DNA of 40,071 nt from a virus. The notes under the pieces were generated by a model that was not told the DNA's origin, ran no database searches, and worked only from the letters and a program-made list of their open reading frames with translations. The translations under genes were made by a program, and so were the position numbers. The stretch is from the IMG/VR virus record IMGVR_UViG_3300038409_000024, positions 1 through 40,071 of that record; one strand, given 5' to 3'. This document shows, piece after piece, positions 4,093 to 28,301 of the stretch; the stretch's first letter is position 1, and every line of letters begins with the position of its first letter.

Positions 4093-4320
4093 TCACTTGA
4101 AGACAAGAGCCCACACCGTGGGGTGATAGGTTCCATCCCTCGGCCTGGAAGCACCGTAGTGCTCGGCAATCTGCCGCGCACGCTCTGTAGCGTCCGCGAG
4201 GGACGCATCCACGTCTTCGCTGACATCCTGGAGCATTGCGAGCATCTCAGGCTCGTATCGCTCCAGGAACTCTTGGGCCGTGCAGAAGTTCACAGCCACA
4301 AAGGCCATTCGTGCTGACAT
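4093..4320 (-). CDS. Small hypothetical protein (75 aa)
   Basis: 75-residue, mostly helical acidic protein with the core FLERYEPEMLAMLQDVSEDV and the C-terminus HPTVWALVFK. No family is recognised. The ATG at 4320 has AGGA about 11 nt upstream; ATG at 4308 is a second choice. It is the last gene of the early cassette block, preceded by a hairpin (4369-4402) but lacking the GGTCTCTC start-associated sequence found before most of its neighbours. Confidence 0.7.
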   Translation of the reverse strand: MSARMAFVAVNFCTAQEFLERYEPEMLAMLQDVSEDVDASLADATERARQIAEHYGASRPRDGTYHPTVWALVFK

Positions 4321-4368
4321 CCCCGTTGTTTTCCTGTTGCCATAGTGTTTGCTGATCCTTCCCCAATG

Positions 4369-4402
4369 AAAAGGGGACGGCCGCCTCACGGCAACCATCC
4401 CC
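4369..4402 (-). terminator. Hairpin terminator after the DUF7417-like gene
   Basis: Minus strand: 13-nt arms (4390-4402 and 4373-4385; two G-T pairs) around a GTGA loop, followed by TTTT (4372-4369). One of a series of cassette-separating hairpins. Confidence 0.7.
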
Positions 4403-4436
4403 TATGGTTAACGTCACGAAGTCTCTGGCAGTGTGG

Positions 4437-4634
4437 CTAGTGCACCACACGGCCGTCGCCCACATCCAGCAGCTCCCGCAGGCGGGGGCCGGCAGTCCGG
4501 GGCGGGTTCCACGCGAGCCCGGTGTCGAGCATGTACTGGAACAGCTCCACGGTCTCAGGCAGCTCCAGCTCCCCGTTCTCGTAGGCGTCCAGGCGCTCCT
4601 GCAGCGGGTACTCGCGAAGATCGTACTTGGGCAT
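4437..4634 (-). CDS. DUF7417-like small phage protein
   Basis: 65-residue acidic protein with the recognisable signature KYDLREYPLQERLDAYENGE followed by ELFQYMLDTGLAW and a Leu-rich end (LRELLDVGDG). Proteins with this pattern are common small phage proteins of unknown function, annotated as DUF7417. The ATG at 4634 is preceded directly by AGGTCTCTC, the start-associated sequence of this block. A hairpin terminator follows the gene. Confidence 0.8.
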   Translation of the reverse strand: MPKYDLREYPLQERLDAYENGELELPETVELFQYMLDTGLAWNPPRTAGPRLRELLDVGDGRVVH

Positions 4635-4770
4635 GAGAGACCTGCATATGGTTGGTGGCTGGCGTCATCCCCCGCCAGCATTGGGGCCGCAGCAACCGCC
4701 GTCGTGGCGGAAGCTGGGGTAGGTTCACGATGTCAAAGAGCAGAGCCCCAGACGTAAGGCGACAATCCCT

Positions 4771-4920
4771 CTATGTCAAGGGGTCGCCCGGGTTCACGTC
4801 CCGGGCGGTGTATTTGCGCACGCGCTTGTCGCGCCTGAGGGCGTGCCTGCGCTGGGGCTTGTGGGGCACCCGGATGGGCGCCCCAGTACGGCGAGGCTTT
4901 CGCGGCTTACGCTTGGCCAT
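4771..4920 (-). CDS. Very basic small protein (49 aa)
   Basis: 49 residues with a dense run of Lys/Arg (MAKRKPRKPRRTGAPIRV) and a basic middle (RRHALRRDKRVRKY), so it probably binds nucleic acid. The start codon lies inside the 3' end of the upstream 90-aa gene (14-nt overlap) with GGAG 8 nt upstream, so the two are coupled. No family is recognised; an early host-DNA or RNA-binding protein is a guess. Confidence 0.65.
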   Translation of the reverse strand: MAKRKPRKPRRTGAPIRVPHKPQRRHALRRDKRVRKYTARDVNPGDPLT

Positions 4921-5179
4921 CGCCGTTCTCCCCTGGTGTGCTGTAGAGCAGCACCGAGCCCGGCACCATGCCGCCCTTAGGCGACCGCTTCTCAGGCTCG
5001 TTGAACCACTCGCGAACTCGCTTGCGGTTCTCCGGCGTGTTGTGCACGTCGGCGTAGGACTCGTTGAAGTCCGGGTGCTTCGAGACTGCTGCGTACGTGA
5101 TGCCACGAACGTGCATCTTCGTACGGGCGCAGTCCGGGCCGCCCTTGACGACAACGGAGATGTAGATGGGGTTTGCCAT
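4907..5179 (-). CDS. Hypothetical early protein (90 aa)
   Basis: 90-residue protein starting MANPIYISVVVKGGPDC, with a charged central segment (NTPENRKRVREWFNEPEKR). No family is recognised. The start is set by AAGGAG eight bases before ATG 5179, a more conventional ribosome site than in the neighbouring cassettes, which use GGTCTCTC. It overlaps the next basic gene by 14 nt. Confidence 0.8.
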   Translation of the reverse strand: MANPIYISVVVKGGPDCARTKMHVRGITYAAVSKHPDFNESYADVHNTPENRKRVREWFNEPEKRSPKGGMVPGSVLLYSTPGENGDGQA

Positions 5180-5213
5180 TGGCAACTCCTTCTGTGTTGA
5201 CCCTACTAACGCC

Positions 5214-5242
5214 AAAAGCCCCACTCCTTTCGGAGCAGGGCT
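5214..5242 (-). terminator. GAAA-loop hairpin terminator
   Basis: Minus strand: 11-nt arms (5232-5242 and 5217-5227) with a GAAA loop, followed by TTTT. It lies directly after the stop of the 87-aa gene. Confidence 0.75.
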
Positions 5243-5249
5243 GATGGGT

Positions 5250-5513
5250 TCAGGCAGACTTGCGGTCCCGCACCATGTCCGCCGTGATTTTCACCACATG
5301 CTTGGTGCGGGCTTCCGTCTCGACGCAGATACGCAGGTAACTGTCCGCCGCCTTGTGGGCGCTGTCGTCGCGGTAGGCGAAGCCACTCCGCTGGAATGCC
5401 TCGCCGTGCCTGTTGGTGCCCTGCACCATCCAGACGTAGGCGTAGACATTGTCGCTGGAGCGGGTGACGACATGACCACCAGGGAACGTGACGGTGTAGG
5501 TGTAGCGTGCCAT
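5250..5513 (-). CDS. Early cassette protein, paralogue of the 104-aa neighbour
   Basis: 87-residue protein. The N-terminal half aligns with the next upstream cassette (5595-5909): MARYTYTVTF / MAKHNYVARF, then VVTRSSDNVYAYVW / VLTRTSQDRVYTHAW, and AHKAADS / AHKAINS. The fold is probably a small alpha/beta domain. The start follows GAGGTCTCACAC, a variant of the block's start-associated sequence, and a GAAA-loop hairpin follows the stop. Function unknown; it probably arose by tandem duplication. Confidence 0.85.
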   Translation of the reverse strand: MARYTYTVTFPGGHVVTRSSDNVYAYVWMVQGTNRHGEAFQRSGFAYRDDSAHKAADSYLRICVETEARTKHVVKITADMVRDRKSA

Positions 5514-5554
5514 GTGTGAGACCTCGCGCTGTGTTGGGGTAGGCTTGTAACGCC

Positions 5555-5585
5555 GAAAGGGCCGCCACCTTTCGGTGACGACCCT
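5555..5585 (-). terminator. GAAA-loop hairpin, repeat copy 1
   Basis: Minus strand arms GGGTCGTCACC and GGTGGCGGCCC around GAAA, followed by TTTC. The same hairpin sequence occurs at 7143-7168 and 7383-7408. It separates the 104-aa and 87-aa cassettes. Confidence 0.7.
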
Positions 5586-5594
5586 GACGAGGCG

Positions 5595-5909
5595 TTAGGC
5601 GCTCTTGCCCCAATCCTTGATCGACTTCTCGACCACCTTCAGGTTCCTGAAGGCGGCGTCATCCTCGACCTCGGACACAGGGACGGCGAGGCGCTCAAAC
5701 ACCTTGGTGCTCTCGTAGGCACCCGAGTTGATCGCCTTGTGGGCCAACTCGGCGCTCCCGGCGAAGCCGGAAGCCACGGCATGCTTGCGCTCGCCATCCT
5801 GCGTCCACACGAGGAGGACCGCCCAGGCGTGGGTGTAGACGCGGTCCTGCGACGTGCGAGTGAGAACACCGAACTCGCCGAACCGGGCAACGTAGTTGTG
5901 CTTAGCCAC
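5595..5909 (-). CDS. Early cassette protein, paralogue of the 87-aa neighbour
   Basis: 104-residue protein with the same N-terminal pattern as the following gene (MAKHNYVARF, VLTRTSQDRVYTHAW, SAELAHKAINS) and a longer charged C-terminal tail ending KSIKDWGKSA. It uses GTG at 5909 with GAGGTCTCTCAC immediately upstream. Function unknown. The pair is an in-place duplication within the cassette array. Confidence 0.85.
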   Translation of the reverse strand: MAKHNYVARFGEFGVLTRTSQDRVYTHAWAVLLVWTQDGERKHAVASGFAGSAELAHKAINSGAYESTKVFERLAVPVSEVEDDAAFRNLKVVEKSIKDWGKSA

Positions 5910-5970
5910 TGTGAGAGACCTCGCTTGCTAGTTCTGCACCCTGCCGTTAGGGGCAGGGCCTACAACGCCG

Positions 5971-5999
5971 AAAGGGCCCCTAGCTTTCGCTAGAGACCC
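5971..5999 (-). terminator. GAAA-loop hairpin
   Basis: Minus strand arms GGGTCTCTAGC and GCTAGGGGCCC around GAAA, followed by TTTC. The sequence differs from the other copies but the stem length and loop are kept, which suggests the structure is selected. Confidence 0.7.
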
Positions 6000-6012
6000 T
6001 GTTCAGCCCACC

Positions 6013-6315
6013 TCACTCCCCGAGCAACGTGGCTGGTTCCCAGCCCATCGCCTTGGCCAGCTCGACCGACTGCGTGGCGTCGTTCTTCACGATGGCCAGC
6101 ACAAGCCCTGCGGTGGTGAACCGCTTGCCGGTGGCGGGGTTCTTGCGGCGCAGCGCGTCGTAGCACTGGGCTGCGCTCCAGTTGTGCACGCTCTCCTGCA
6201 GCGCCTTGCGGAGCGCCTTGGGGAGCAAGTCGTAGGCTTCCATGTTGCCCAGCTTGCCGTTCCGCGTGTAGCGAACGGAGCGGCGGTCAACAGTGTCCGA
6301 CATATTCGATGCCAT
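6013..6315 (-). CDS. DUF6525-like protein (100 aa)
   Basis: 100-residue protein with the pattern NMEAYDLLPKALRKAL ... NWSAAQCYDALRRK, which resembles the small DUF6525 family (REYDRLP, LRRWL, PWS motifs) known mainly from alphaproteobacteria; its role there is unknown. The match is from memory of the motif, so moderate. The ATG at 6315 is preceded by AAAGGGTCTCTCAC. A hairpin follows the stop. Confidence 0.8.
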   Translation of the reverse strand: MASNMSDTVDRRSVRYTRNGKLGNMEAYDLLPKALRKALQESVHNWSAAQCYDALRRKNPATGKRFTTAGLVLAIVKNDATQSVELAKAMGWEPATLLGE

Positions 6316-6355
6316 GTGAGAGACCCTTTACGGTTGTTCACACCCTACAAACGAC

Positions 6356-6388
6356 AAAAGGGACCGCTGCCGTTAAGGCAACGATCCC
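6356..6388 (-). terminator. Hairpin terminator after the GP88-like gene
   Basis: Minus strand: 12-nt arms (6377-6388 and 6360-6371) with a short TTAAC loop and TTTT following (6359-6356). The best T-tract among the cassette hairpins. Confidence 0.75.
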
Positions 6389-6402
6389 CTTGCGTCAAGT
6401 AA

Positions 6403-7074
6403 TTAGTGCAGCGGATAGCTGACGTTCTCGACCGTCGGGTCCCAGCAAGCACGGCATGGGCCGCACTTGCCTTGCCGAGTGTAGGCACCACACTCGAACC
6501 CGTGGACGATGTCGCCCTTGCGGTGCACCGTGGACGTGTTCTCCCAGCGGGCTCTTGGCGCGTCCCCGACCATGGTGGACGAGACGCGGATCACGAGGTT
6601 GCTCGGGAGTTGGCCACCCTGCTTGTACCAAGCATCGACGATGCTGGCCTCGCGAGTAGGCAGCCAATGCCTTACGTCAGGTGTTAGGCCGCAGACGAGC
6701 ACGATGGCGGCCAGCATCTCCACCGACTGCAAGTCACCACTGGCGAACCAGCGATGTTCGGAGACACCCTGCTTACGCAGGCCGTTCCTGATCTGGAAGG
6801 CCATCGCCGCGGCCCACTTGCCGGGGTTCGCAGCGATCAAGGCGGTGGCCTTCATGTAGTTGGCTTCCCATCCGGCCTTGACCGATGGGTAAAGGGCGTT
6901 GCCCTTCATAGCGTAGCACTTGCTGCACACGCTTCCCTCCACCTCGGCCAGCTTGCGCCCCGTCTGGCACCGTGTGGCCGGGATCGACCACGATGTGCCG
7001 GGCATCTTGCCCACCTTGATGGAGACCGAACCTGCCTCGGCTTTAGCCGAAGCCAACGTCATTGCCTGTGTCAT
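6403..7074 (-). CDS. GP88-family phage protein
   Basis: 223-residue protein resembling the phage GP88 family (gene product 88, found in many unrelated phages, function unknown). Visible marks are KMPGTSWSIPATRC, the pair of Cys in SVCSKCYAMKG, HRWFASGDLQS, LPTREASIV and the C-terminal CGPCRACWDP, where paired Cys could bind metal. ATG 7074 is preceded by AAGGTCTCC, a shortened start-associated sequence. It is the largest gene of the early block and has its own hairpin terminator. Confidence 0.88.
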   Translation of the reverse strand: MTQAMTLASAKAEAGSVSIKVGKMPGTSWSIPATRCQTGRKLAEVEGSVCSKCYAMKGNALYPSVKAGWEANYMKATALIAANPGKWAAAMAFQIRNGLRKQGVSEHRWFASGDLQSVEMLAAIVLVCGLTPDVRHWLPTREASIVDAWYKQGGQLPSNLVIRVSSTMVGDAPRARWENTSTVHRKGDIVHGFECGAYTRQGKCGPCRACWDPTVENVSYPLH

Positions 7075-7142
7075 GGAGACCTTGGGATGTTGTTGGTGGT
7101 TGGGCGATCCCTGCCGTAAGGCAGGTCCTCGCAACGCCCTAA

Positions 7143-7168
7143 GGGCCGCCACCTTTCGGTGACGACCC
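7143..7168 (-). terminator. GAAA-loop hairpin, repeat copy 2
   Basis: Same 26-nt hairpin as at 7383-7408 and 5559-5584 (arms GGGTCGTCACC / GGTGGCGGCCC). It lies just after the 55-aa gene; the following T-tract is weak (TTAGGG). Confidence 0.65.
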
Positions 7169-7177
7169 TGCCAAGGC

Positions 7178-7345
7178 TCAGTAGATGCGGAGTGCCGGAG
7201 GCGCCTCTTCCACCCCGAGCAGCTCGGCCACCGCGTCAACGATGTCCTGCGCCTTGCCCTGCGCCTTCACGTCGTCGCTCTCGCGGAGGTCGACCGTGAT
7301 GGTGGTGGTCTGGAAGATTGCCTGGAAGCGGTACCAACGTGCCAT
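7178..7345 (-). CDS. Small early cassette protein (55 aa)
   Basis: 55-residue protein MARWYRFQAIFQTTTITV... with an acidic helical second half (AQDIVDAVAELLGVEEAP). The beginning (MAR-Y-F) echoes the paralogous 87- and 104-aa cassette proteins, so a distant relation is possible. ATG 7345 follows GAAAGGGTCTCAC. Identical hairpins flank it on both sides, which marks it as one complete cassette of about 240 bp. Confidence 0.75.
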   Translation of the reverse strand: MARWYRFQAIFQTTTITVDLRESDDVKAQGKAQDIVDAVAELLGVEEAPPALRIY

Positions 7346-7382
7346 GTGAGACCCTTTCGGTTGGTGGCTTGTAACGCCCTAA

Positions 7383-7408
7383 GGGCCGCCACCTTTCGGT
7401 GACGACCC
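7383..7408 (-). terminator. GAAA-loop hairpin, repeat copy 3
   Basis: Identical to 7143-7168. It follows the 169-aa membrane protein gene. Confidence 0.65.
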
Positions 7409-7416
7409 TGTTCAGG

Positions 7417-7926
7417 CTAGCGACGGACAGCGAGCGTGAACGCCACGCGGCTGGCAGCGTAGATCATCGCCGGGATGACGAGACCGAACGGGAGAGCGAG
7501 GTAGACGAGGAGGCCTTCGGCCTGTGCCCCGAACGCGGCCGCATTGAGCAGCGCCGAAACGATCAGCGTACCGGCGATAGCCGGCCGAGCGAACCGCTCC
7601 ACTTCCTCCCTCACCTTCGGTGTGGCAGCACAGAGTGTGCCGCACTCGAAAGCGAGGAAGCCGAGGTCAATACCGATGGCCATCGCCCACGCCTCCCATA
7701 GGGGCGCCCTGGTGATGAGCACGATGCCGTTGGCGAGATGCTCTAGGCTCAGCGCCGTCAGCACGACAACAAGGGACGCGGTGAACACCGCAGCCCATCC
7801 CTGTCTGCGCAGGCGCCGCCGGAAGCCGGCAGTCACGCTCTTCGCAGGCCTCGCCTTCGAGCGCCCCTTGGCCCGCGCCTTGGGGAACTCGTGGACGACA
7901 TTCTCGGCAACTACGTTGTCAAGCAT
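7417..7926 (-). CDS. Four-helix membrane protein (169 aa)
   Basis: Inner-membrane protein. The first 50 residues are basic (KARAKGRSKARPAKS, RRRLRRQGW), probably cytoplasmic. They are followed by four hydrophobic segments near residues 46-73, 80-103, 118-138 and 143-165. No family is recognised. ATG 7926 is preceded by ATAGGTCTCTC, which selects this start over an upstream in-frame ATG. An early membrane protein in this position could act on the host envelope or on superinfection, but that is inference. Confidence 0.85.
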   Translation of the reverse strand: MLDNVVAENVVHEFPKARAKGRSKARPAKSVTAGFRRRLRRQGWAAVFTASLVVVLTALSLEHLANGIVLITRAPLWEAWAMAIGIDLGFLAFECGTLCAATPKVREEVERFARPAIAGTLIVSALLNAAAFGAQAEGLLVYLALPFGLVIPAMIYAASRVAFTLAVRR

Positions 7927-8000
7927 GAGAGACCTATGTGTGAGGTTGTTGTGGTTGTTGTCTGCAGTCACTGCCTTACGGCAGGCTTGCAACGCCGAAA

Positions 8001-8026
8001 GGCCCCTTGGGTTTCCCCAAGAGGCC
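8001..8026 (-). terminator. GAAA-loop hairpin after the first early gene
   Basis: Minus strand 11-bp stem with a GAAA loop, followed by TTTC. It separates the 61-aa and 169-aa genes. Confidence 0.7.
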
Positions 8027-8034
8027 CGTCAGGC

Positions 8035-8220
8035 TTACCTGTCGTGGTCTGTGTGTCTCAGCGCCGTAGGCGGTTGCCACAGGCGCTCCTCGTTGTCCAC
8101 GGCCCACTCATGCGCCAGGGTGACGCCGTAGGCGACCACCAGAAACAGCATCAGCAAGCCGCCGAGCCAGAGACAAGGCTCGAGTTCTGCCCAGAGGGCA
8201 GGGTCAGACCAGATGTGCAT
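8035..8220 (-). CDS. Small membrane protein, first early gene (61 aa)
   Basis: 61 residues with one hydrophobic span (about residues 17-36, LWLGGLLMLFLVVAYGVTLA) between polar ends. ATG 8220 follows GATAGGTCTCTC. It is the first gene after the long non-coding region and so would be the first product made after host-promoter transcription; in T7 that position is held by anti-restriction gp0.3, but no similarity is seen. Confidence 0.75.
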   Translation of the reverse strand: MHIWSDPALWAELEPCLWLGGLLMLFLVVAYGVTLAHEWAVDNEERLWQPPTALRHTDHDR

Positions 8221-8557
8221 GAGAGACCTATCAGGTTGGTTGGTTGACTGTGTTTCGACCCTTTTGGGCCATCATCAGCAGGCTTGCACAAGCCTGGACA
8301 CACCCCATGAGCGCCTTCCGGCTGTGGCTTGCGCCTCCCTCATGGGTTCCCTACGCCGCCTATGGTGGCGGTTCGGGTTGCGGGTCCGGAGGTCCGAAGG
8401 GTCTGGGCGAGCCCCACTCACCGTATGTCGCCGCACTGTGGAGCTTCGCTCTCTGGCGGAAGGTGAGTGGATTGTTGCGGGCTTTCCCTTGCCCCATGTG
8501 GGCCGGTTGTCCGGTCGGGGCGGGTACCGTTGAAGGCCGTTCGCCGTCGACCCCTTA

Positions 8558-8587
8558 ATCAAAGCACGGATCATCGCCTTTTGTCAA
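8558..8587 (-). promoter_or_regulatory. Candidate host sigma70 early promoter
   Basis: On the minus strand a perfect TTGACA (8587-8582) is followed, after 18 bp, by TTTGAT (8563-8558; 4 of 6 matches to TATAAT). It points leftward into the early cassettes and lies about 340 bp ahead of the first early gene. It is the only consensus -35 in the region with a reasonable -10. Confidence 0.5.
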
Positions 8588-8984
8588 ATGTCTCACCATG
8601 TCAGGCTTTGCCTCCCGGGCGGTGAGAAGACACAGGCGAAAAACACAGGGGAGGGAACGCGGGAGGGCGAAGCCCGGCGCTCGCAGGCACCCACACGACC
8701 CTCCAGGCCACCCAAGCGAGACGCAACGTCTAGCGAAAACCCTCGTAACACGCGCCTTAAGTGCCCCTCGGTGACACGGCCGGTGACATGAGCCGGCCTC
8801 GCGGGCACGAAAACGAGGGCGTATGGGGGGGTCGCGCACACGCGCCGATTGTCGAACAGGACCTTAGACATTCGCAGCAAACTATCCGGGGTGTGAGTCA
8901 GCCCGCCGCATGCCCCTAGGAAGCCTTCCCGAGCCCGTACAGGGCCCTGGAGGGGACCTGGCTGTCTCCCTAGGGGGAACCCAA

Positions 8985-9004
8985 GAGATCGCGCAAAACC
9001 CCCT
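8985..9004. repeat. Left arm of a 20-nt perfect inverted repeat
   Basis: Reads GAGATCGCGCAAAACCCCCT on the plus strand, the exact reverse complement of 11379-11398. The two arms flank the terminase large subunit gene and its neighbours. This copy lies 20 bp after the stop of the 63-aa late gene. Confidence 0.85.
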
Positions 9005-9025
9005 CCAGGCGCTTCCTACGGCATC

Positions 9026-9217
9026 CTAGAGGTCGTACTCTGGTGTCCAGTCCGCGGTGAACCCAATAGGGCGCTTCAGGCGCCGGCGTATGGGCCGACC
9101 ATCCGGGTCGACCAGCCCAGTGTCGCCCCACTCGGGGGGCTCCTCGACCACCAAGGGGTAGACCACTGCGACATCGTCGTCCCAGTCGGCCCTTGGCCTA
9201 CGTGAGACACTTGACAT
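9026..9217 (-). CDS. Last late gene, T7 19.5-position protein (63 aa)
   Basis: 63-residue charged, Pro-rich protein (MSSVSRRPRADWDDDVAVVY ... FTADWTPEYDL). No family is recognised. ATG 9217 has AGG about 6-7 nt upstream. It lies between the terminase and the genome-end region, the place of gene 19.5 in T7; only the position, not the sequence, supports that link. Confidence 0.6.
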   Translation of the reverse strand: MSSVSRRPRADWDDDVAVVYPLVVEEPPEWGDTGLVDPDGRPIRRRLKRPIGFTADWTPEYDL

Positions 9218-9242
9218 TCGTCAACCTGTGCCTACGTAAGAA

Positions 9243-9265
9243 CTTATATATACACTATAGGTGGA
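9243..9265 (+). promoter_or_regulatory. T7-type promoter core on the plus strand
   Basis: TACACTATAGG (9251-9261) matches the -9 to +2 core shared by T7-, K11- and SP6-class promoters (CACTATAGG). The upstream recognition segment is TATATA-rich instead of the T7 CGACT. +1 would be G9260. It lies in an unusually AT-rich patch downstream of the terminase, the place of T7 phi-OR, but faces against the genes. The minus strand offers only the weaker CACCTATAG. Confidence 0.4.
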
Positions 9266-9334
9266 TGTTAGGTGTTCCTCTAGAGGACACCTGAGGGGAT
9301 GTTTCATCTTCCTCCCCTTAGGTGACACCCAACA
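9266..9334. promoter_or_regulatory. Mutually exclusive hairpins downstream of the terminase
   Basis: Plus-strand hairpin A pairs AGGTGT 9270-9275 with ACACCT 9287-9292. Hairpin B is a 12-bp stem (one G-T) pairing 9288-9299 with 9313-9324. An outer stem can join 9266-9275 to 9325-9334. Hairpins A and B both need the CACCT at 9288-9292, so only one can form. On the minus strand it follows the terminase stop and may be a late terminator or attenuator. Confidence 0.6.
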
Positions 9335-9353
9335 GCAGCACTAGAGTCCATCT

Positions 9354-11114
9354 TCAGCGTCCCTTACCTGTCCTTCTAAGTGCACCACTAGAGAACTCTC
9401 TCTGGGGGCCTAGTGACTTGCCTAGAGTGTGCTGTAAGAACCTCTGAAGCTCGGCATCTAGGAGGGCCTCCTTGCGATCCGTGACTGCCTTCAGGGTGTC
9501 CCTGGCCACAGAGTCCATGAAGTGGGTCACGGCGCCGGCAAGGGCGTCCAGGCGGTCGTCCTGGGCGAGGGCTCCCTTCGCCCGGACCATGCGAGTCATC
9601 TGGTAGAAGCCCCGGTAGTAGGGGGCTCGGTCACCGTCGTACCGCTTCACGCTGGCGTAGTCGGCCTCGATCACGCTCGGGCAGACCACGAGCCGGTGCT
9701 GGTTCATGACCGGCTCCAGGGTGTCGATGATCCGCTGCTCCTTCATCGCCTTCGACCAGTCGGCGTCCTCGACCCCGCAGTCGTGGATGGCCAGGGAGGC
9801 CACCATGCTCTGCAGGAGCTTCGTGAACATGCCGCCGCCGAAGTTCGGCTCGCACTTGATGAGCCTCACGTCGTGCTTCTTGGCGATCTGGATGAGGGAC
9901 TTGAGGGTCTCGTTGGTGTAGCCGCCGATGAACCCGCCCCAGGCGGTCAGGAAGAGCCTCCCGTGGAGGAGCTTCACCACCGCGTAGGCGGTCTCGTCCC
10001 TCCCTCGTCCCGAGGGATCAACGAACATCACGGCGCTCTCGTAGGGCGCGGAGTCGGGGGACCACCACATCGGCCGGTGGAAGCGGTCGCCGGCCATCCC
10101 CAGGGCGGGGAGGTCGGGCACCACCATCTCCTTCGAGCCCGCCCACATGAAGTCCACGGGGGCCCTGAAGGGGTCCAGGGGGTGGACGATGAGGTCGGCG
10201 AGCTTCAGCGGGAACTTGTCGGCGTCGGTGAGGGAGGTGTCGAGCTGGAATTGGAGCTGGAAGCCGGAGCGGCCGTAGGACAGCTCGCGCTCCGTGAGGT
10301 CGGCGTCGGAGAAGCGGGCCGGATCGGTAGGATCACGGACGAGGCTCGAGTTGTCCACCAGCTTCTTTCGGATGGCTGGAGCCAGCTTCAGGCCGTACCT
10401 GTTGAGGTCGGCAGGGAACCGTGCGGGCCAGATGCGGACCACGTAGCCCCTGTCTGGGAGGGTGTTGTAGACGGACTGCTCGGTCTGCGGGGTGCCCAGG
10501 TAGACGATCCGTCCACCCGGCTTCAGGACTGCGTCGAACTCCTTGACGGACTCCAGGATCTTGTCGCGCTTCGCCTGGGTGTCCGAGTTGGTGGGGATCT
10601 CGATGTCGTCGGCGACGATCACGTCGGAGCGTGAGCCAGTGAGCTGGCCGGAGATGCCCAGGCTCTTCAGCGAGGGGGCGATGTCCGGCTTGGCGAGAGC
10701 CACGTCGAACGCCTGGACCGAGCGCCGGCCGTCCATGCGGGGCGCAAGGTGCTGCAGGATCGGCACCTCGTTCAGGAGGCGGAGGACGAAGCTCGCCAGC
10801 TCGATGGCCTTGGGGGCGTTGGCGGAGACCGCCATCACCCGGGTCTGGGCGTCGCGGTACCACAGCCAACAGATGAAGGCCGCCGTCACCCAGGACTTGC
10901 CCACACCACGGAACGCCTCGACGATCAGACGCCGGGGCCCGTGCTGCAGGAATGATGCGATGTCGTACTGTACCCAGGTGGGGTCGGGGAGCCCCAGGTG
11001 CTTCCAGATGACGTATAGGAAGTTCCTGAAGTCCGCCTTGAGAGGATCGGCCTCCCCCACCGGAGTGAGGGAGGTCGAACCGAGTAGCTCCTGGGCGAGC
11101 TTAGACCGGGTCAC
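9354..11114 (-). CDS. Terminase large subunit (T7 gp19-like)
   Basis: Packaging motor ATPase and nuclease that cuts concatemers and drives DNA into the prohead through the portal. The ATPase domain has the Walker A FRGVGKS near residue 70, the stretch SGQLTGSRSDVI and the Walker B VADDIE. YLGTPQTEQSVYNTL matches T7. The nuclease domain has the metal-binding DPSGRGRDETAYAV, FGGGMF, DTLEPVMNQHRLV and DDRLDALAGAVTHF. With the GTG at 11114 it is 586 residues, the length of T7 gp19; an upstream GTG at 11138 is possible. It overlaps the 70-aa gene by 14 nt. The last 80 bases use unusually AT-rich codons and hold CACTAGAG repeats (9339, 9386). Confidence 0.97.
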   Translation of the reverse strand: MTRSKLAQELLGSTSLTPVGEADPLKADFRNFLYVIWKHLGLPDPTWVQYDIASFLQHGPRRLIVEAFRGVGKSWVTAAFICWLWYRDAQTRVMAVSANAPKAIELASFVLRLLNEVPILQHLAPRMDGRRSVQAFDVALAKPDIAPSLKSLGISGQLTGSRSDVIVADDIEIPTNSDTQAKRDKILESVKEFDAVLKPGGRIVYLGTPQTEQSVYNTLPDRGYVVRIWPARFPADLNRYGLKLAPAIRKKLVDNSSLVRDPTDPARFSDADLTERELSYGRSGFQLQFQLDTSLTDADKFPLKLADLIVHPLDPFRAPVDFMWAGSKEMVVPDLPALGMAGDRFHRPMWWSPDSAPYESAVMFVDPSGRGRDETAYAVVKLLHGRLFLTAWGGFIGGYTNETLKSLIQIAKKHDVRLIKCEPNFGGGMFTKLLQSMVASLAIHDCGVEDADWSKAMKEQRIIDTLEPVMNQHRLVVCPSVIEADYASVKRYDGDRAPYYRGFYQMTRMVRAKGALAQDDRLDALAGAVTHFMDSVARDTLKAVTDRKEALLDAELQRFLQHTLGKSLGPQREFSSGALRRTGKGR

Positions 11115-11313
11115 CGGCCGGCACGCACTTCGCGGCACCGACGAAGGTCGCCTTCGGGTCCTTTAGCAGGGGGGCCCAGGCCTTGGTGATGTCGACGGCC
11201 ATCTTCTCGCAGTGCTCCTTCTTCAGGAGGGGCGTGGCGATGGTCAGGTCGCCGCAGGCCGGCTCGCCGTTGGAGGCGATGAGACAGACAGACAGAACCA
11301 GATTGAACAGCAT
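11101..11313 (-). CDS. Small exported Cys-containing protein (70 aa)
   Basis: 70 residues with a hydrophobic N-terminus (MLFNLVLSVCLIAS) that looks like a signal peptide or anchor, then a soluble part with Cys at about 20, 35 and 63 (ACGDL, HCEKM, KCVPAG), suggesting periplasmic disulfides. AGGA lies before ATG 11313. It sits between the small and large terminase, where T7 has its spanin gene 18.5, so an envelope or lysis role is possible, but no spanin pattern is seen. Confidence 0.75.
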   Translation of the reverse strand: MLFNLVLSVCLIASNGEPACGDLTIATPLLKKEHCEKMAVDITKAWAPLLKDPKATFVGAAKCVPAGDPV

Positions 11314-13633: not shown

Positions 13634-16600
13634 CTACTGCGGCTGACGCGGCGGTGGCCGCTCAGGCAGGTTGAGGGCGCTGGGCCCGACGAGGAACGAG
13701 AGCCCGTTGCCGATGCCAGCGAGGTTGTTGAACGGCAGCATCGAGAACAGGTCCCTGGTTTCCGTCTGGGCCGGAGCCCGGAGGTTCCAGAGCGAGTTCG
13801 TCATCCCGCCTACGCCGCGGCCCGCCCGATCAATGAAGTTGATGAAGGGCATGCCGAGGACGGCGTTGGAAGGCTGCGCCGTGGTGCGGGCGTTGAAGAT
13901 GCCCTCCTTGTTCCCCCCGAGCAGCAGGGCGCTGTCGGTAATCATGGGGAGGAGAGCCGACCAGCCAGACCGCGAGAATGCGGCCAGGGCCAGGGCCTCG
14001 ACTGAGGCGTTCTTCTTGACGTACTCGTCGTAGTCCGACCGGCCGAGGGCCGTGAGGTGGACCTGAGCAGCCCGGACAATCGCAGCCGACGCCATGCTCC
14101 AGAAGAACGTGGCCATCGCACGGGGGTCACCCATGTGGATGTTGTAGTTCAACTGGTTGGCGTGGGCGACCATCGGGAAGGACCGGAACTGGAAGATGAT
14201 TTGCATGATGGGATCATCACGCAGCTTCCGAGGCACGGTTCCCTGGTCGCCCTGCTGGATGATGGCTCGGGCGCGGCGCCAGATGGCCCGCTCGAAGACC
14301 ATCTTGGCCTCCTTGTCCGTCCACTGCCAAGCACGGGCGGTGGGCACCAGCTCGCCGGTGAGGCGGCCTTCGGTGACCCCGACGTGGTCGATGAACTGCT
14401 GCAGGATGCGTTTGAGCATGTCCTCGCCGACCCCGAGCTGCGCCATGCGACGGGCGAAGCCGGTGGTCGAGGAGAACGTGATGCGGCGCTCAGGGTGAAC
14501 CCCGAGGTCCAGGTTGTTGTCCTTGCGGTACTTGGCCGCGTAGTTGGCAACGTCCTGGACGAGCCACATGCGGGTGTGCCGCTCCTGCGTCCTCTGCCAG
14601 AAGTTCTGCATCGACAGCGTGTTCTGGATGTGCTCGCCGGCCGACATCAGGCGCTCCGCCCCCGCCTTGAAGCGGTTGGGAGAGCCCCCGTAGGGCATCT
14701 CGTCGATGCCGTCGATGTCGTCCCAGCGGAACCCGTGAAGGTGCTCGTGGGACCCGAGGGCCTCGACGAACTGGGCCAGCTCGCGCTTCATGAGGCTCTT
14801 CCCCGTGACGGGGTCGATGAACCTCTTGAAGGCGGGGGACTGCTGCATGGCAGCCTTGATGCCGACCTGTCCGATGGCGGTGCCATACTCGGACGACTGG
14901 GCGAAGCCGACTTGGTTCAGGTAGACCGTGCGGAGGAACGCCCTGGTCATCCGGAGGTGCCACGCCCAGTTGTCGAGCTGAGCGGGGTTGGGACGACCGA
15001 GGACCCGGTCGATGTCGAACCGGAGCTTCTCGATCTCGTTCTTGATGTGCTCGGCCGTGTAGCTCGGGTTCTTTTCCGAGTGCATGCGGTTATACACGAT
15101 CAAGTTCTCGATGGTGGCGTCGATCTCCTGCTGGTTGGTCCAGCCGTTGACCAGGAAGCGGGTCTCCCCGCCGGCCTGATTGGCCATCGGCAGCTCGACG
15201 CGGACGTTAGCCGCCGCCCAGTGCCCCGACATCTGCCTAAAGTACTTCTTGGAGATGGCGGTGATGTCGTTGTTGAGGATGTCCGCGAAGTGCAGCTCCT
15301 CGTCAACGCCATTGCGTCGGACGGTGTGGACGTAGGTCTCGTCGAACCACTCACGCTTCTTCAGGTGGCCTGCGGAGGTCTTACCGTCCCCTGACGGGGG
15401 GTAGACCCACTCCAGCATGTCGTCGATCAGGGCGTCGTCGACACCCTTCTCGCGGAGCTGGGCGGCCAGGGCCTCCCGAGCGTCCTTGTTCCCCATGTGG
15501 GCGTTCTCCCAGCGGTGGTGACCGATGCCGAGGCTCCGGTCGTCCAGGATGTCCACCCACATATCGAAGAACTTGAGCAGCTCGGCCTCGTCCCGCGGCT
15601 CCACACCGCGCTTGATGCGCTCGGAGTTGTGGGACTTGGCCAGCATCTTCACTACCTCGGGGTGCCCGAAGTAGGCCACAGCATCCGCGACTGCGTTGTA
15701 GTCGTAGATGCGGGGGATCTGGTACACGTCCGGGTCGATGTACTCGGCGCCGGAAACCGGACGGCCCTCCTTGCCTTCGTGGCGCAGGGGGTTCATCAGG
15801 TCGAGGCCGGCCTCCTTGTAGACGCGGCGGAAGGCGTTGAGCAGCTCCACTGCCTCCGGGTCGATCTGGTGCCTGGAGGACCGGATAGCCCGGCCCGCCA
15901 TGACGTACAGCTCCTGCCGGCGCGTGGCGAGCTGGGCCGGTGTGAGGCCCAGGCGCTCCGCCCACTTCTGCTCGATGCCAACCCTGGACTGCTCGAAGTC
16001 GGTGAGCCAGCGGCTCTCCATCTGCATCTGATCCAGGTTCATCGGCCGGAAGTTGGTCCGGTGATCGCGCATGCCCACAGCGTTGTTCAGAACGCTCCCG
16101 CCGATGGCGCGAGTGCCCGGCGAGGGGGACATGACGTACAGCGAGGCGGGGTCTATGCGGGCCCAGCCGGCGCCGTGGGGGATCAGGTCCCCGTCCACGT
16201 CGGCGAAGGCGGTCCAGGCATCGTCCTTGAACCGGGAGCGGAGTGCGTCCAGGTTCTGGATGAGCGTCTGCTCGTCAGGGGTCAGCTCTTTCCGGCCCCC
16301 GGCGTTGTTCCACCAGGAGGTGATGCGGGCCCCGAGGCCGGTGACCTTAGGCCCCTGGCGGGGCTTCTGGTACAGCTCCCGGGCTCCTTCAGGGGCCCCG
16401 GGCATGGTGCTCTCGCGGACACCCAAGACCTCGAAGAGGTGGTCGAAGGCGGCGTACACACGCTGCTTCTCGGCCTCGTCGGTGAACTTGTTGAACCACA
16501 TGGCGTGGTTCTTGATGGTCCCGCCGGAGCGGTCGGACACCCACGACTGGAAGGCGCGGGCGGTGACCTCCATAGGGTTCTGGAGATACTCGCGAGCCCG

Positions 16601-19600
16601 CCGGCCGCCGGAAAGGAAGGTGGCCTTGTTGCCCTCGTTGGCGAAGATGCCGGTCTTCGTGGTGGCGGCGCCGATCAGCCTATTCTGGAGTTCGGCGACC
16701 TTGCCCTGTACCTCGATGACATACTCATGGTGACTCAAACCACGCAAGTCCGCCCACGCCTTCAGCCATCGCTGGTAGAACTCCAGTTCGGCCGTGAGCC
16801 GGGCCACGTCCTCCCCGTACAGGGCGGTGTGGACACCGGCGATGGCGTCCCGGACCTCGGGGCGAATGGCGATCTTGGACTCGGGGGCGGTGACGCCTCG
16901 GGACACGTCGATGTACCCGCCGCGGTGGTTGGGGAACCCGATGTTGAAGAGGAAGTTGGCCAGGGTGTGCCAGAACTCGTGGGCGACGGTAGACGCCTCA
17001 CGCCCGACGCCGCCGATCATCAACGGGCTGTAGTTGATGACCGCGTCCGGGTCCTGAGCATTCTGGCCCTCCCTGATCCAGGTGTGGGCCATCCCGTAGG
17101 CACCAGGGTCTAGCATCCGCTCGGCAAACCAGCCTTCCAGGCGCCCGCCGTGGAACATGGTCTCGACGGGGATGCCGATGGCGGTGGCCACGGACTGCAG
17201 GTCGCGTCGGAGGAGGGCGTCAACGTTGCCCAAGCGGGCGGCCCGCTGAGCGCCGAGGCTGTCCAATCCGAGGGTGATGCGGTCTCCGAAGGTCTCCCAC
17301 AGCTTGTCCAGGGGACGCGCCGCGGGGTTCGCGAACTCGTCAATGCGGCCAGAGCTGATGTCGTCGAAGACATCACGGGCGGTGCGGAAGCCCGAGATGC
17401 CCAGGGCCCGCTTCAACGCTCCGAACCACTCCAGGACTTTGTCCAGGACGGCGTCCAGCTTTCCGAAGGTCTCCCCACGGAAGCGGCCGTCGAGCATACG
17501 GGCGACGACCTCCTCGTCCATCTGGAACTGCATGAGCCCTTCGGACTTGTACTGCGCCTCGACCTCCTCGCGGATGTGTCGGAAGCGTCTGGAGTTGGTG
17601 ACCTGGACCAGCTTGTCCCAGTCCTTGTCGCCGATGACGCCGTGGGCCCGGAGGGCGTGGATCGTCTCGTGGAAGACGGTGCGGGCCAAGTCCCACGACT
17701 CCAGAGAGGCGTGGATCAGGCGGTTGCGGTAGTAGCCCCACTCGCCGCCGTCGATGGACTCGGTGATCTTCAGCCTGATCTTGTCCCGGAGGCGCTCCGG
17801 GATGACCGTGTAGAAGACCCTCTCGGCCTCGTCGATGGCCTCGTCGATGGGCTGCAGGACGCGGCCGTCTGCAAGGTCCAGGGGAAGCTGCTTCCAGTGG
17901 ACGGACTGGTTGGCGTCGTCGGCGCGGCCGGCGCGGAAGGCGGCGTCGTGGGCGCCGTTGATGCGCTCACCCTCGAAGTGCTCCACCAGCGGCTCGCGCT
18001 TGCGGAACGCCTCACGCCACGCGAACATCTCCCTGTGGGTCCACCGAGGGTTCTCCCCGGTGTCGGTGGTCTCCCCGCGTAGCTGGTTGGTCTCGACGCC
18101 AATGCGCTGTATCCACTGGATGTAGGCGTGGCTGGCGCCGCCCTGGATAGGGCCTTCCGGGTGATGGAAGACGCTGTAGTGGACTACGCCGACCCGCTTG
18201 CCGTCCTTGTAGAGGGCGAGGACACGGGTTGGGCCGTACTCACCCTGTATGCCGACGATGTGGCCCTCGGCAATGTCCTTTTCGGTCAGGTGACGGGCGG
18301 AGAAGCCCTTGGGGAGCTTGGTCGTGCGGGCGGCGCGGACGCGCTCGCGGAGGATCTGCTCGGCCCCTTCGATGGTCGTGGCCTCGTCGAGAGACCTCAC
18401 CCGAGGGAGCTGCTTCATCTTCCGCCCGGCGTCGATGCCTTTGGCGTCCGACAGCATGTCCTCCAGTTGCTCGTCCTGAGCCCGCATGAGGGCGTTCATC
18501 AGGTCGGCGAACTTCAAGGTGCCGCGCCCCTTGCGTGGGGTGGCGGGGGCCTGGGGCTGGGCAGCCTCCACAGGACCGTCGGGGATATTGTTGCCCTCCC
18601 GGAACCGGCGGATGTCCTCGTGGGCCTCCCTGACGGCCGAGCGAACGGCCTCGGAAGGGGTCTCCTTCAAGACCTGCTCCAGCTCCGCGGCGCGGTCCTC
18701 CAGCTCCTTGAGCTTCTGGGCCACGTCCTGAGGGACCTGGAGCCCCGTCTCCGGAGAGACAGGATCGCCGGGGACCGTGTGCAGGCCTTGTCCGGTGACC
18801 GCCTCGGCCTGCCCAAGGCGGTGCCGAGCGCTGCTGATGATGGCGCCGATGACCTGACCGATGGCCGCGTCGTCACCTAGCCGGCCTGTAGCGGAGCTGA
18901 ATTGCTCCCGGGCGGCCTTGATGAGGTCTGCGACAGGAACTCGGGCCAGGATCTCACGCAGCGGGCCCTCGCCCAGGCGTCGGAGGGCGTTGGTGAGCGA
19001 GGTGTTCTCCCCGTTGGCCCAGGGAGGGGCCGTAGGAGCGGCTGCGGGAGTGCTTTGCGCGTTCTCTAGGGGATTGGTGGGGGTTCGTACCGGCTCCGTG
19101 GGAGCGGGCTGTACGGGGCTCTGAGGCGCCTCTGGCGCTTGCGCAGGAGCCGGGGCGTTGTCCTCGTCGATGAGCCGGTTCAGCTCGTCGATCTCGGTGT
19201 CCCAGCGGCCCCGATCCCAGTTCGCAACGTCCTCCATCGTGGGGGCGTCCGTCCTGGGGGACCCGGAGACGGCGTCGCCGGCCTCCTGAGCGGCCCTGCG
19301 GGACCGAAAGAGGTTCATGGGGGAGCCGCCGACGGTCCTGTAGAGGCCTCGGCCGCGCTCAATGACGCTCTCGGAGATGCGGCGGACGGTGTTGGCCTCC
19401 CCGTGGAGGGCCGGATTGCGGGCCAAGGGGCCTGCAGCGCCTCCGATGAGGAGCCCGAGGGCCGCCGCGGAGTAGTAGTCGGCCTGGGTGGTGGGAACTC
19501 CGCTCATCTCGCCGATGCCGGTGGCCACGGTGTTCGCCCAGGCGCCTCCGAAGGCGTTTCCGCCCCACCAGGAGGCCTCCTGAACCCACCGAGGGGCTCT

Positions 19601-20203
19601 CTGGATGGCGCGAGAGAGCTGAATGGCCCTCATGGCGCGGTAGGAGGCCCCGAAGCTGGTCCAGGAGGTGATATCGGTCATGCCGGCGAGGAAGGAAGCT
19701 CCCAGGCCGGTCCAGCCGCCGTACCCGATCATGTCCAGGTGGTCCTGGCGGGTCCGGGCAAGCTCCAGAAGGCGGTTGAAGTGGGTCTCGGAGACGGCTC
19801 CGGAGAGCTGCTCCATCGCCTCAGGGCGCAGCCCGCCCTTCTCGGCCTCCTTCAGCAGCTCCAGGTACCTGTCCCGGTTCCATGAGGGGTCCGGGGGGAA
19901 GGCTGAGTTGGGGCCGAAGGTGTCGAAGACGTTGGGGCCGCCCCCGTGGATGTCGAGGGTGTAGCCGCCGGTGGGCTGGATGCCGAGGGCCGCCCGGCCC
20001 AGCTCAGACCAGCCGTTGGGGCCGTAGTAACGCTGCTCGAACTGACGCTCGGCAGCCCTCTCGGCCTCGTTGGCCTGGAGCTGGGCGGTGAACGGGACAG
20101 TGTCCTCGGTGACCGAGACGAACCCGCGCCGCTCGTGGGCAGGCGGAGGGTTCCGGTCGGTATGCTCGTCGGCTGGGATCTGATCTGGGGTGGGGGCGGC
20201 CAC
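13634..20203 (-). CDS. Giant internal virion/ejection protein (T7 gp16-position, 2189 aa)
   Basis: Largest gene of the window; T7 gp16 has 1318 residues. It would be ejected first into the host to form the channel across the envelope. Residues of about 1-290 are helical with Gly/Ala-rich segments (MAGMTDITSW type, possible membrane-active). About 320-400 is a Pro-rich linker. Two zincin-like motifs are visible: HETIH at residues 845-849 within LARTVFHETIHAL, and HEFWH at 1075-1079 within STVAHEFWHTLA. The C-terminal third (RTVYLNQVGFAQ, FQFRSFPMVAHANQ, SMLPFNNL) follows the pattern of T7-like gp16 C-termini. No transglycosylase motif is obvious; cell-wall activity may sit in the neighbouring SleB-like protein. 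GTG 20203 has AAGGA upstream. Confidence 0.9.
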   Translation of the reverse strand: MAAPTPDQIPADEHTDRNPPPAHERRGFVSVTEDTVPFTAQLQANEAERAAERQFEQRYYGPNGWSELGRAALGIQPTGGYTLDIHGGGPNVFDTFGPNSAFPPDPSWNRDRYLELLKEAEKGGLRPEAMEQLSGAVSETHFNRLLELARTRQDHLDMIGYGGWTGLGASFLAGMTDITSWTSFGASYRAMRAIQLSRAIQRAPRWVQEASWWGGNAFGGAWANTVATGIGEMSGVPTTQADYYSAAALGLLIGGAAGPLARNPALHGEANTVRRISESVIERGRGLYRTVGGSPMNLFRSRRAAQEAGDAVSGSPRTDAPTMEDVANWDRGRWDTEIDELNRLIDEDNAPAPAQAPEAPQSPVQPAPTEPVRTPTNPLENAQSTPAAAPTAPPWANGENTSLTNALRRLGEGPLREILARVPVADLIKAAREQFSSATGRLGDDAAIGQVIGAIISSARHRLGQAEAVTGQGLHTVPGDPVSPETGLQVPQDVAQKLKELEDRAAELEQVLKETPSEAVRSAVREAHEDIRRFREGNNIPDGPVEAAQPQAPATPRKGRGTLKFADLMNALMRAQDEQLEDMLSDAKGIDAGRKMKQLPRVRSLDEATTIEGAEQILRERVRAARTTKLPKGFSARHLTEKDIAEGHIVGIQGEYGPTRVLALYKDGKRVGVVHYSVFHHPEGPIQGGASHAYIQWIQRIGVETNQLRGETTDTGENPRWTHREMFAWREAFRKREPLVEHFEGERINGAHDAAFRAGRADDANQSVHWKQLPLDLADGRVLQPIDEAIDEAERVFYTVIPERLRDKIRLKITESIDGGEWGYYRNRLIHASLESWDLARTVFHETIHALRAHGVIGDKDWDKLVQVTNSRRFRHIREEVEAQYKSEGLMQFQMDEEVVARMLDGRFRGETFGKLDAVLDKVLEWFGALKRALGISGFRTARDVFDDISSGRIDEFANPAARPLDKLWETFGDRITLGLDSLGAQRAARLGNVDALLRRDLQSVATAIGIPVETMFHGGRLEGWFAERMLDPGAYGMAHTWIREGQNAQDPDAVINYSPLMIGGVGREASTVAHEFWHTLANFLFNIGFPNHRGGYIDVSRGVTAPESKIAIRPEVRDAIAGVHTALYGEDVARLTAELEFYQRWLKAWADLRGLSHHEYVIEVQGKVAELQNRLIGAATTKTGIFANEGNKATFLSGGRRAREYLQNPMEVTARAFQSWVSDRSGGTIKNHAMWFNKFTDEAEKQRVYAAFDHLFEVLGVRESTMPGAPEGARELYQKPRQGPKVTGLGARITSWWNNAGGRKELTPDEQTLIQNLDALRSRFKDDAWTAFADVDGDLIPHGAGWARIDPASLYVMSPSPGTRAIGGSVLNNAVGMRDHRTNFRPMNLDQMQMESRWLTDFEQSRVGIEQKWAERLGLTPAQLATRRQELYVMAGRAIRSSRHQIDPEAVELLNAFRRVYKEAGLDLMNPLRHEGKEGRPVSGAEYIDPDVYQIPRIYDYNAVADAVAYFGHPEVVKMLAKSHNSERIKRGVEPRDEAELLKFFDMWVDILDDRSLGIGHHRWENAHMGNKDAREALAAQLREKGVDDALIDDMLEWVYPPSGDGKTSAGHLKKREWFDETYVHTVRRNGVDEELHFADILNNDITAISKKYFRQMSGHWAAANVRVELPMANQAGGETRFLVNGWTNQQEIDATIENLIVYNRMHSEKNPSYTAEHIKNEIEKLRFDIDRVLGRPNPAQLDNWAWHLRMTRAFLRTVYLNQVGFAQSSEYGTAIGQVGIKAAMQQSPAFKRFIDPVTGKSLMKRELAQFVEALGSHEHLHGFRWDDIDGIDEMPYGGSPNRFKAGAERLMSAGEHIQNTLSMQNFWQRTQERHTRMWLVQDVANYAAKYRKDNNLDLGVHPERRITFSSTTGFARRMAQLGVGEDMLKRILQQFIDHVGVTEGRLTGELVPTARAWQWTDKEAKMVFERAIWRRARAIIQQGDQGTVPRKLRDDPIMQIIFQFRSFPMVAHANQLNYNIHMGDPRAMATFFWSMASAAIVRAAQVHLTALGRSDYDEYVKKNASVEALALAAFSRSGWSALLPMITDSALLLGGNKEGIFNARTTAQPSNAVLGMPFINFIDRAGRGVGGMTNSLWNLRAPAQTETRDLFSMLPFNNLAGIGNGLSFLVGPSALNLPERPPPRQPQ

Positions 20204-28255: not shown

Positions 28256-28283
28256 AAAAAAGGGGGCCCCCGGAGGAGCCCCC
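28256..28283 (-). terminator. Strong terminator after the major capsid gene (T-phi equivalent)
   Basis: Minus strand: nine-pair GC stem (28283-28275 with 28270-28262), then TTTTTT (28261-28256). It lies between the capsid and tail tubular A genes, the same place as the T7 late terminator T-phi. Confidence 0.9.
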
Positions 28284-28301
28284 TAGTTCAACGGAGAAGA
28301 G

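Follow-up and report, generated by a model that had tools for sequence, protein, structure and literature searches.

An early-gene array with genome-private linkers in a temperate T7-like phage and its relatives

Why should a run of small phage genes be introduced, almost one by one, by the same short sequence and be separated by hairpins of the same form? This question is raised by positions 8220 to 4093 of IMG/VR virus record IMGVR_UViG_3300038409_000024, a stretch of 40,071 bp analysed over its whole length (the window), in which a preliminary description had recognised a modular array of single-gene early cassettes. That picture holds: the block has the position of an early region, its start motif precedes unrelated genes and the same grammar is shared by relatives. 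The answer that we favour, with moderate confidence and on sequence grounds, is that these genes may form autonomous, mostly single-gene expression units, read from an upstream host-type promoter, whose linkers would have been homogenised within each genome. Several elements of this answer rest on direct observation, that is, (i) the start motif, (ii) the hairpins and their covariation, (iii) confinement to the array where this was tested, (iv) restriction to one clade, (v) linker sequences private to each genome and (vi) the occurrence of orthologous genes in different linkers.

A start motif shared in form by a clade

The motif precedes eight of the ten array genes, all on the minus strand, at the very starts first reported (8220, 7926, 7345, 7074, 6315, 5909, 5513 and 4634). 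Its GGTCTC core lies at most 22 nt from each of these starts, and the best 6-mer shared by shuffled upstream regions reaches four or five genes. This genome contains the word often (AGGTCTCTC, allowing up to one mismatch, occurs 16 times in the window as a whole for 13.4 expected, which is no enrichment); what is unusual is only its placement before starts, which is seen solely in the array. The motif is lacking at two array starts, 5179 (preceded by AGAAGGAGTTGCCA) and 4920 (which overlaps the preceding gene), and likewise at the last small gene (about 4320), outside the array. The parts of the array are as follows.

8221-8557, minus: untranslated leader before array gene 1, sequence not conserved between relatives
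8221-8229, minus: start motif AGGTCTCTC of array gene 1
8035-8220, minus: array gene 1, 61 aa, probable membrane protein, without family match
8000-8027, minus: hairpin 1 after gene 1, GAAA loop, tail TTTCGGCGTT
7971-7984, minus: hairpin 2 after gene 1, CTGCC-GTAA-GGCAG
7927-7935, minus: start motif AGGTCTCTC of gene 2
7417-7926, minus: array gene 2, 169 aa, probable membrane protein
7382-7409, minus: hairpin 1 after gene 2, GAAA loop, copy A
7346-7354, minus: start motif GGGTCTCAC of gene 3
7178-7345, minus: array gene 3, 55 aa
7142-7169, minus: hairpin 1 after gene 3, GAAA loop, copy A
7110-7125, minus: hairpin 2 after gene 3, CCTGCC-TTAC-GGCAGG
7075-7083, minus: start motif AAGGTCTCC of gene 4
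6403-7074, minus: array gene 4, Pfam GP88 family, 223 aa
6357-6391, minus: hairpin 1 after gene 4, TTAAC loop, tail TGTCGTTTG
6316-6326, minus: start motif GGGTCTCTCAC of gene 5
6013-6315, minus: array gene 5, DUF6525 family, 100 aa
5971-6002, minus: hairpin 1 after gene 5, GAAA loop, different stem
5939-5958, minus: hairpin 2 after gene 5, CCCTGCC/GGCAGGG
5910-5921, minus: start motif AGGTCTCTCACA of gene 6
5595-5909, minus: array gene 6, 104 aa, paralogue of gene 7
5558-5585, minus: hairpin 1 after gene 6, GAAA loop, copy A
5514-5524, minus: start motif AGGTCTCACAC of gene 7
5250-5513, minus: array gene 7, 87 aa, paralogue of gene 6
5217-5242, minus: hairpin 1 after gene 7, GAAA loop, tail TTTGGCGTT
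4907-5179, minus: array gene 8, 90 aa, ordinary Shine-Dalgarno (SD) sequence (AGAAGGAG), without start motif
4771-4920, minus: array gene 9, 49 aa, overlaps gene 8, without start motif
4635-4643, minus: start motif AGGTCTCTC of gene 10, in a linker without a strong hairpin 1
4437-4634, minus: array gene 10, DUF7417 family, 65 aa
4370-4405, minus: last terminator-like hairpin, GTGA loop

Terminase and RNA-polymerase searches yielded six relatives, all metagenomic, namely L001 (short), L002, L003, L100, L170 (record G005) and L171 (record G004), which together with the window form one terminase clade (100/99 support). All five with a readable early region share the architecture of the array (small, mostly single-gene units, a hairpin after the gene and a start motif before the next). 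The search for the motif in related phages proposed at the outset therefore had a double outcome, since the grammar is present but the literal GGTCTC is so used in no close relative, each of which has its own motif, as listed here with the array genes that carry it.

Window: AGGTCTCTC, 8 of 10
L002: AAAGGCAAGAGAC, 5 of 7
L003: GAGGAGACC, 10 of 11
L100: GGAGCAAGTCAC, 8 of 9
L170: CTGAGAGAGCA, 11 of 11 (descriptive, not a test: array genes chosen via the motif)
L171: TTGGAGAGCACA, 5 of 5 (descriptive, for the same reason)

Shuffles of the same gene sets reach at most 5, save for one Markov shuffle set for L003 that reached 7. When 51 early regions were screened without bias, L100, L003 and the window came out on top; the very short genes of L002 kept it from standing apart from the rest. 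Profile scans with DUF6525, the regulator, GP88 and the membrane protein found L100 as the sole new array phage, and the RNA polymerase profile added two. That the array arose once, in the common ancestor of the clade, would be the most economical interpretation, although the tree does not prove it.

In the four phages tested, the start motif contains 4-6 nt complementary to the 16S tail, an SD-like core mostly 5-9 nt before the start, and its conservation extends past this core into the spacer (TCTC, CAAG, GAGAC, GAGAGC); it may be described as an SD core plus a genome-specific spacer. Outside the arrays, linker elements were searched for in three relatives (L003, L100 and L170), where they are confined to the array apart from one occurrence before the L170 integrase, and this confinement argues against late-gene promoters and dispersed operators. 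A promoter for the phage RNA polymerase in the linkers was rejected, the elements being absent before late genes where searched, and a search of the window for a motif common to late genes found none. Nor is the stoperator pattern of cluster A phages (L5 type, with asymmetric repressor sites across the genome) seen, the elements of L003, L100 and L170 being restricted to the array save for that same integrase. At this site (L170:8003-8057), both an array start motif and a terminator-like hairpin precede the gene, unlike in the other genomes. The fact that GGTCTC (window) and GAGACC (L003) are reverse complements had made an orientation-free DNA site a candidate, which was dropped since, after adding L100, L170 and L171, the relation looks like chance around SD cores.

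These properties invite the alternative, which we regard as doubtful, that the start motif or the whole linker is the binding site of a phage-encoded reader (protein or RNA) co-evolving with it in each genome, the early region being one regulon. Such a reader would fit the conservation of the spacer beyond the SD core and the restriction of the motif to the early array where searched, and a parallel change of specificity between subclusters has been proposed for the extended start-associated sequences (ESAS) of mycobacteriophages (PMC3203893). However, no reader gene was found, the regulator genes tested have no such motif before them, hairpin sequences vary within most genomes, which leaves the start motif alone readable by sequence, and homogenisation by copying would yield the same pattern without a reader. 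The common translation or RNA-level control suggested in the preliminary description has likewise found no support, as no control factor came to light.

Hairpins, transcription and RNA ends

Hairpins follow most of the genes, as had been noticed from the start. Six have a GAAA loop (at 8015, 7397, 7157, 5988, 5573 and 5231), three of which (7397, 7157 and 5573) are one sequence, with 30-38 nt identical between linkers, and two further ones have other loops (6391-6357 and 4405-4370). The CCTGCC/GGCAGG hairpins were also found again (at about 7984-7971, 7125-7110 and 5958-5939); these second hairpins are short (5-7 bp) and present in three linkers. Hairpin 1 is mostly 8-14 bp long, with longer composite folds in L170 only. 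Across seven different GAAA hairpins from the window and L002, 98.8% of cells are paired, two-sided changes occur at 11 of 12 pairs, and 33 two-sided cells compare with 10.7 after shuffling (none of 500 shuffles as high). This covariation keeps the stem paired as the sequence drifts, which argues that hairpin 1 is maintained as an RNA structure; L170 adds little on this point because its nine commonest copies are nearly identical. With the exception of linker 4635-4770, the window linkers also fold better than dinucleotide shuffles (z -3 to -5).

Most of these hairpins look like intrinsic terminators. In seven of the eight interior linkers of the window, a hairpin of 10-12 bp is followed by a T-rich tail and the terminator score d is 16-40, on a scale which serves comparison only and on which the terminator after the capsid gene scores 63. 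Over all phages, 34 of 42 linkers have a d above 0, as do 2 of 60 windows of coding sequence. L170 and L002 have high scores and the window moderate ones, those of L003 and L171 are low, and L100 falls mostly below 0. A G+C-rich hairpin followed by a U-tract is thus the rule, except for most of L100, and in four phages T-rich tails were equalled by 0-2 of 5000 random sets. An Rfam search gave no matches, and neither did an exact-sequence scan of viral contigs for the hairpin, because hairpin sequences are private to each genome; a consensus scan for promoters and terminators gave too few sites for use.

Where does transcription of the array begin? A host-type promoter about 370 nt upstream would be the starting point, and the candidate is the following.

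8558-8587, minus: sigma-70-like promoter TTGACA-N18-TTTGAT, candidate early promoter, 367 nt upstream of array gene 1

In the window, L003 and L100 alike, TTGACA promoters lie 309-621 nt ahead of gene 1. Within the linkers, sigma-70 promoters are not above chance (best score per linker in the window 6.56 vs 6.70 shuffled, with L002, L003 and L100 similar), a linker promoter of an unfamiliar type being possible. With a candidate promoter upstream and none found in the linkers, transcription must pass several terminator-like hairpins. One such hairpin (L003:13256-13319) lies even ahead of the first L003 array gene, so that early transcription there must pass it or begin after it. An antitermination leader like put of HK022 was considered and rejected, the 340 nt before gene 1 being no more alike between relatives than shuffled sequence, although such a leader may be conserved in structure only.

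The early region of T7 has a host promoter upstream and small host-takeover genes with RNase III-site hairpins between them, these sites being long (about 20 bp or more), imperfect hairpins. The array resembles it by its position, its host-type promoter upstream and the RNA hairpins that separate its genes, but RNase III sites are fewer and long, whereas here a short perfect hairpin, a U-tract and a shared start motif are found at nearly every gene. It is therefore conceivable, if rather unlikely, that the hairpins are processing sites of the same kind, cutting a long early transcript into single-gene mRNAs. The T7-like gene order and genomic position, the promoter upstream with none found in the linkers, the strong stems with poor U-tracts of L100 and L171, and the predicted folding of U-tract, second hairpin and start motif into a helix of about 20 bp in L170 all speak for processing. 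However, most hairpin 1 stems are short for RNase III, the U-tract enrichment in the four phages tested points to termination and the L170-type fold is not general.

Read-through attenuation, in which the start motif would be silenced by pairing with either the U-tract or the end of the gene before it, so that only some transcripts are translated, is very improbable. Such pairing is predicted in individual linkers of L170 and L002, where sequestration of the SD by the U-tract is striking, but in none of six genomes does it exceed the level of shuffled U-tracts, nor is co-evolution seen from one genome to another (155 of 720 permutations). Pairing with the segment after the upstream stop gives a weak signal in the window (53 of 2000) and none in L002, L003 and L100, and both forms were rejected, general SD sequestration not being found.

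Linkers private to each genome

How can relatives share the form of the array and so little of its sequence? Local alignment of linkers gives median scores of 14-42 within genomes and of 7-10 between genomes in 14 of 15 pairings (shuffled 8), and for 40 of 43 linkers the closest one lies in the same genome. Linkers before orthologous genes are no exception, with a median of 8 over 14 pairs, 13 of which are at shuffle level (the remaining one, DUF6525 in the window vs L002, scores 17). The GP88 proteins of L100 and L171 are 78% identical, more than the terminases (61%), and the linkers upstream score 9, which suggests that the gene was shared, perhaps moved, while the linker belongs to the resident genome.

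Copying would account for this pattern. Linkers made up of a terminator-like hairpin with a short U-tract, sometimes a small second hairpin, an A/C-rich stretch and the start motif might be homogenised by gene conversion, by unequal crossing-over or by gene insertion with the resident linker, and homogenisation inside genomes would lead relatives to keep the architecture, not the sequence. The hairpins would probably act as leaky terminators and/or protective 3' ends, and a gene with its own mRNA end and ribosome site could enter, leave or change place with no disturbance to the genes beside it. The expectation that the cassettes allow gain, loss and shuffling agrees in part with what is seen, since gene order and content differ between relatives (DUF6525 stands before DUF7417 in the window and after it in L003, and GP88 stands before the large membrane protein in L100 and L171), but recombination in the shared hairpins, the proposed route, was not observed. 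Such recombination is plausible inside one genome; between these relatives, the hairpins share little sequence and cannot easily serve as homology for exchange.

Several findings weigh against this favoured reading. SD pairing does not account for the conservation of the spacer in the start motif, an argument also made by the authors who described start-associated sequences (SAS) (PMC3203893). The hairpins of L100 are weak as terminators (median d -2.3, with two of seven above 0) and those of L171 are borderline, so that termination may not be a function common to all hairpins; from their sequences, either termination is leaky and variable, or the common role would be that of a protected 3' end or processing site. 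Some likeness across genomes persists (L002-L170 median 16 and one window-L170 pair 24), and similarity is not significantly greater between adjacent linkers than between distant ones (521 of 5000), so that local copying gets no support from the average effect. The longest exact repeats are nevertheless between neighbouring linkers in all four genomes checked, the start motifs of L100, L170 and L171 look related, and the residual resemblance fits common descent followed by rewriting.

Could the linkers be mere by-products of gene duplication or insertion, copied with the cassettes and serving as nothing more than ordinary ribosome sites and terminators? We consider this distinctly unlikely. 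The paralogy of window genes 6 and 7 (38% over 65 aa, the N-terminus of gene 3 being similar), the repeats shared by neighbouring linkers and the ordinary SD cores inside the start motifs are what it would predict. Compensatory changes, however, keep the stems paired despite sequence change and so place hairpin structure under selection, the array genes are nearly all mutually unrelated, for which simple duplication is insufficient, and the neighbour effect is not significant. A bolder reading of the array, which we find improbable, is a private early-gene code in which motif and hairpin form would be read by a cognate factor of each phage. Incoming genes would have to adopt the resident linker for their expression, and the linkers would be rewritten as a set with the divergence of phage and reader, as a tag of self for early genes.

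Genome setting, known parallels and significance

The main genes of the window lie on the minus strand and encode a primase/helicase, a DNA polymerase, a head-tail connector, a capsid protein, a long internal protein, a lysozyme, a tail fibre and a terminase. Along the record come the terminase, about 1.1 kb without clear genes, the array block, a MarR-like regulator, a tyrosine integrase and a T7-type RNA polymerase.

9354-11138, minus: terminase large subunit, used for the tree
4093-4320, minus: last small gene, outside the array grammar, without start motif, homologues in L002, L003 and L100
3640-4005, minus: MarR-like winged-helix regulator, without start motif, homologues in L002, L003 and L100
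2525-3676, minus: tyrosine integrase, phage type
3-1844, minus: T7-type single-subunit RNA polymerase, N-terminal two thirds, cut by the window end

The same gene order has been described for LUZ100, a T7-like phage with temperate features (PMC10134795), and the succession of early genes, regulator, integrase and RNA polymerase is also found in Lo5R7ANS, Pasto, RHEph01, CRP-125 and RHEph21. All the hallmarks of temperate T7-like phages of the LUZ100 type (early genes, MarR-like regulator, integrase, T7-type RNA polymerase and T7-type structural genes) are present, and this gene order around the block identifies it as the early region of such a phage. The hosts are likely Alphaproteobacteria, judging from the nearest terminases, which belong to alphaproteobacterial prophages (60%), and from the relatives of the GP88-family protein (6403-7074), which are 57-60% identical and occur in marine Roseobacter phages, including the temperate T7-like CRP-125 and the unrelated CRP-4.

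Other features of the genome deserve mention. A strong intrinsic terminator (28260-28284) directly follows the capsid gene (28302-29240), where T7 has its late terminator, and a single open reading frame of 2189 aa (13634-20203) stands at the place of the T7 internal virion proteins. In the non-coding stretch between terminase and early genes (8221-9353), a block around 8880 conserved in relatives L001, L002, L003 and L009 (CCCCGGATAGTTTGCTG...) is followed by a T-rich GTGTTTTT element, and the two probably mark a concatemer junction or terminal-repeat region. The early region of L009, a relative outside the clade, encodes a pentapeptide-repeat-like protein with in-frame repeats of a short unit (L009:15470-15670, CTCTCCGGCGCGAAC).

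How does the array compare with known systems? Integron cassettes are promoterless single genes with a folded attC element alike within one array and different between arrays. The array shares these traits with integrons, which have also been reported in phages (PMC9892861), but an attC identity was rejected, as the linkers of the window, L002, L003 and L100 have no RYYYAAC/GTTRRRY boxes and the integrase is of phage type.

The SAS and ESAS of cluster K mycobacteriophages (PMC3203893, PMC12699233), put forward as a parallel in the preliminary description, are an apt one as regards the way of working. An SAS is a short asymmetric SD-core sequence a few nt before the starts of many unrelated non-structural genes, in a single orientation, conserved beyond SD pairing, absent from structural genes and tied to larger intergenic gaps, and ESAS are an extended form with a second element upstream. 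However, SAS have roughly one consensus throughout the cluster and stay with gene families, whereas the motif here differs from genome to genome and orthologous genes do not keep their linker; ESAS repeats are not RNA-hairpin-like, whereas hairpin 1 is, with compensatory changes, and here a terminator-like hairpin belongs to the unit. The SAS consensus GGGATAGGAGCCC was not found near starts at up to two mismatches (the window has AGGTCTCTC and the relatives other motifs), and neither was the 17-bp imperfect inverted repeat of ESAS, the same in sequence within a genome and present before about half of the motifs, the second hairpins of the window having 5-7 bp in three linkers.

The PeSL of T4-type phages, as presented in papers that cite Arbiol 2010 and Comeau 2014, are repeated stem-loop linkers between small, fast-changing early genes, tied to shuffling, and stem-loops between small early genes are indeed what is seen here. 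By the same accounts, PeSL are promoter-terminators, whereas these linkers have no sigma-70-like promoter above chance and a start motif instead. Despite the same gene order, LUZ100 (PMC10134795), Lo5R7ANS, Pasto, RHEph01, CRP-125 and YIMV22061 lack a shared start motif, and in the six named isolates of this order one gap only has a hairpin with d > 0. The early-gene array is thus most aptly regarded as specific to one clade, with linkers private to each genome. In its way of working it resembles SAS/ESAS and PeSL without belonging to either, since the SAS consensus and the PeSL promoter were looked for and not found.

It is chiefly in their early genes that phages store functions for host takeover and anti-defence, and the turnover of these genes is fast. 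An array of autonomous units with linkers that change as a set would offer a concrete platform for this turnover. As a manageable example of phage regulatory sequences evolving in concert, it would also make it testable whether phage gene linkers are kept by copying or by a dedicated reader. Private linkers could also help to find early-gene arrays in metagenomes without protein homology. In conclusion, the comparison of these genomes suggests that temperate T7-like phages of this clade possess a plug-in gene platform, the connectors of which are rewritten as a set.

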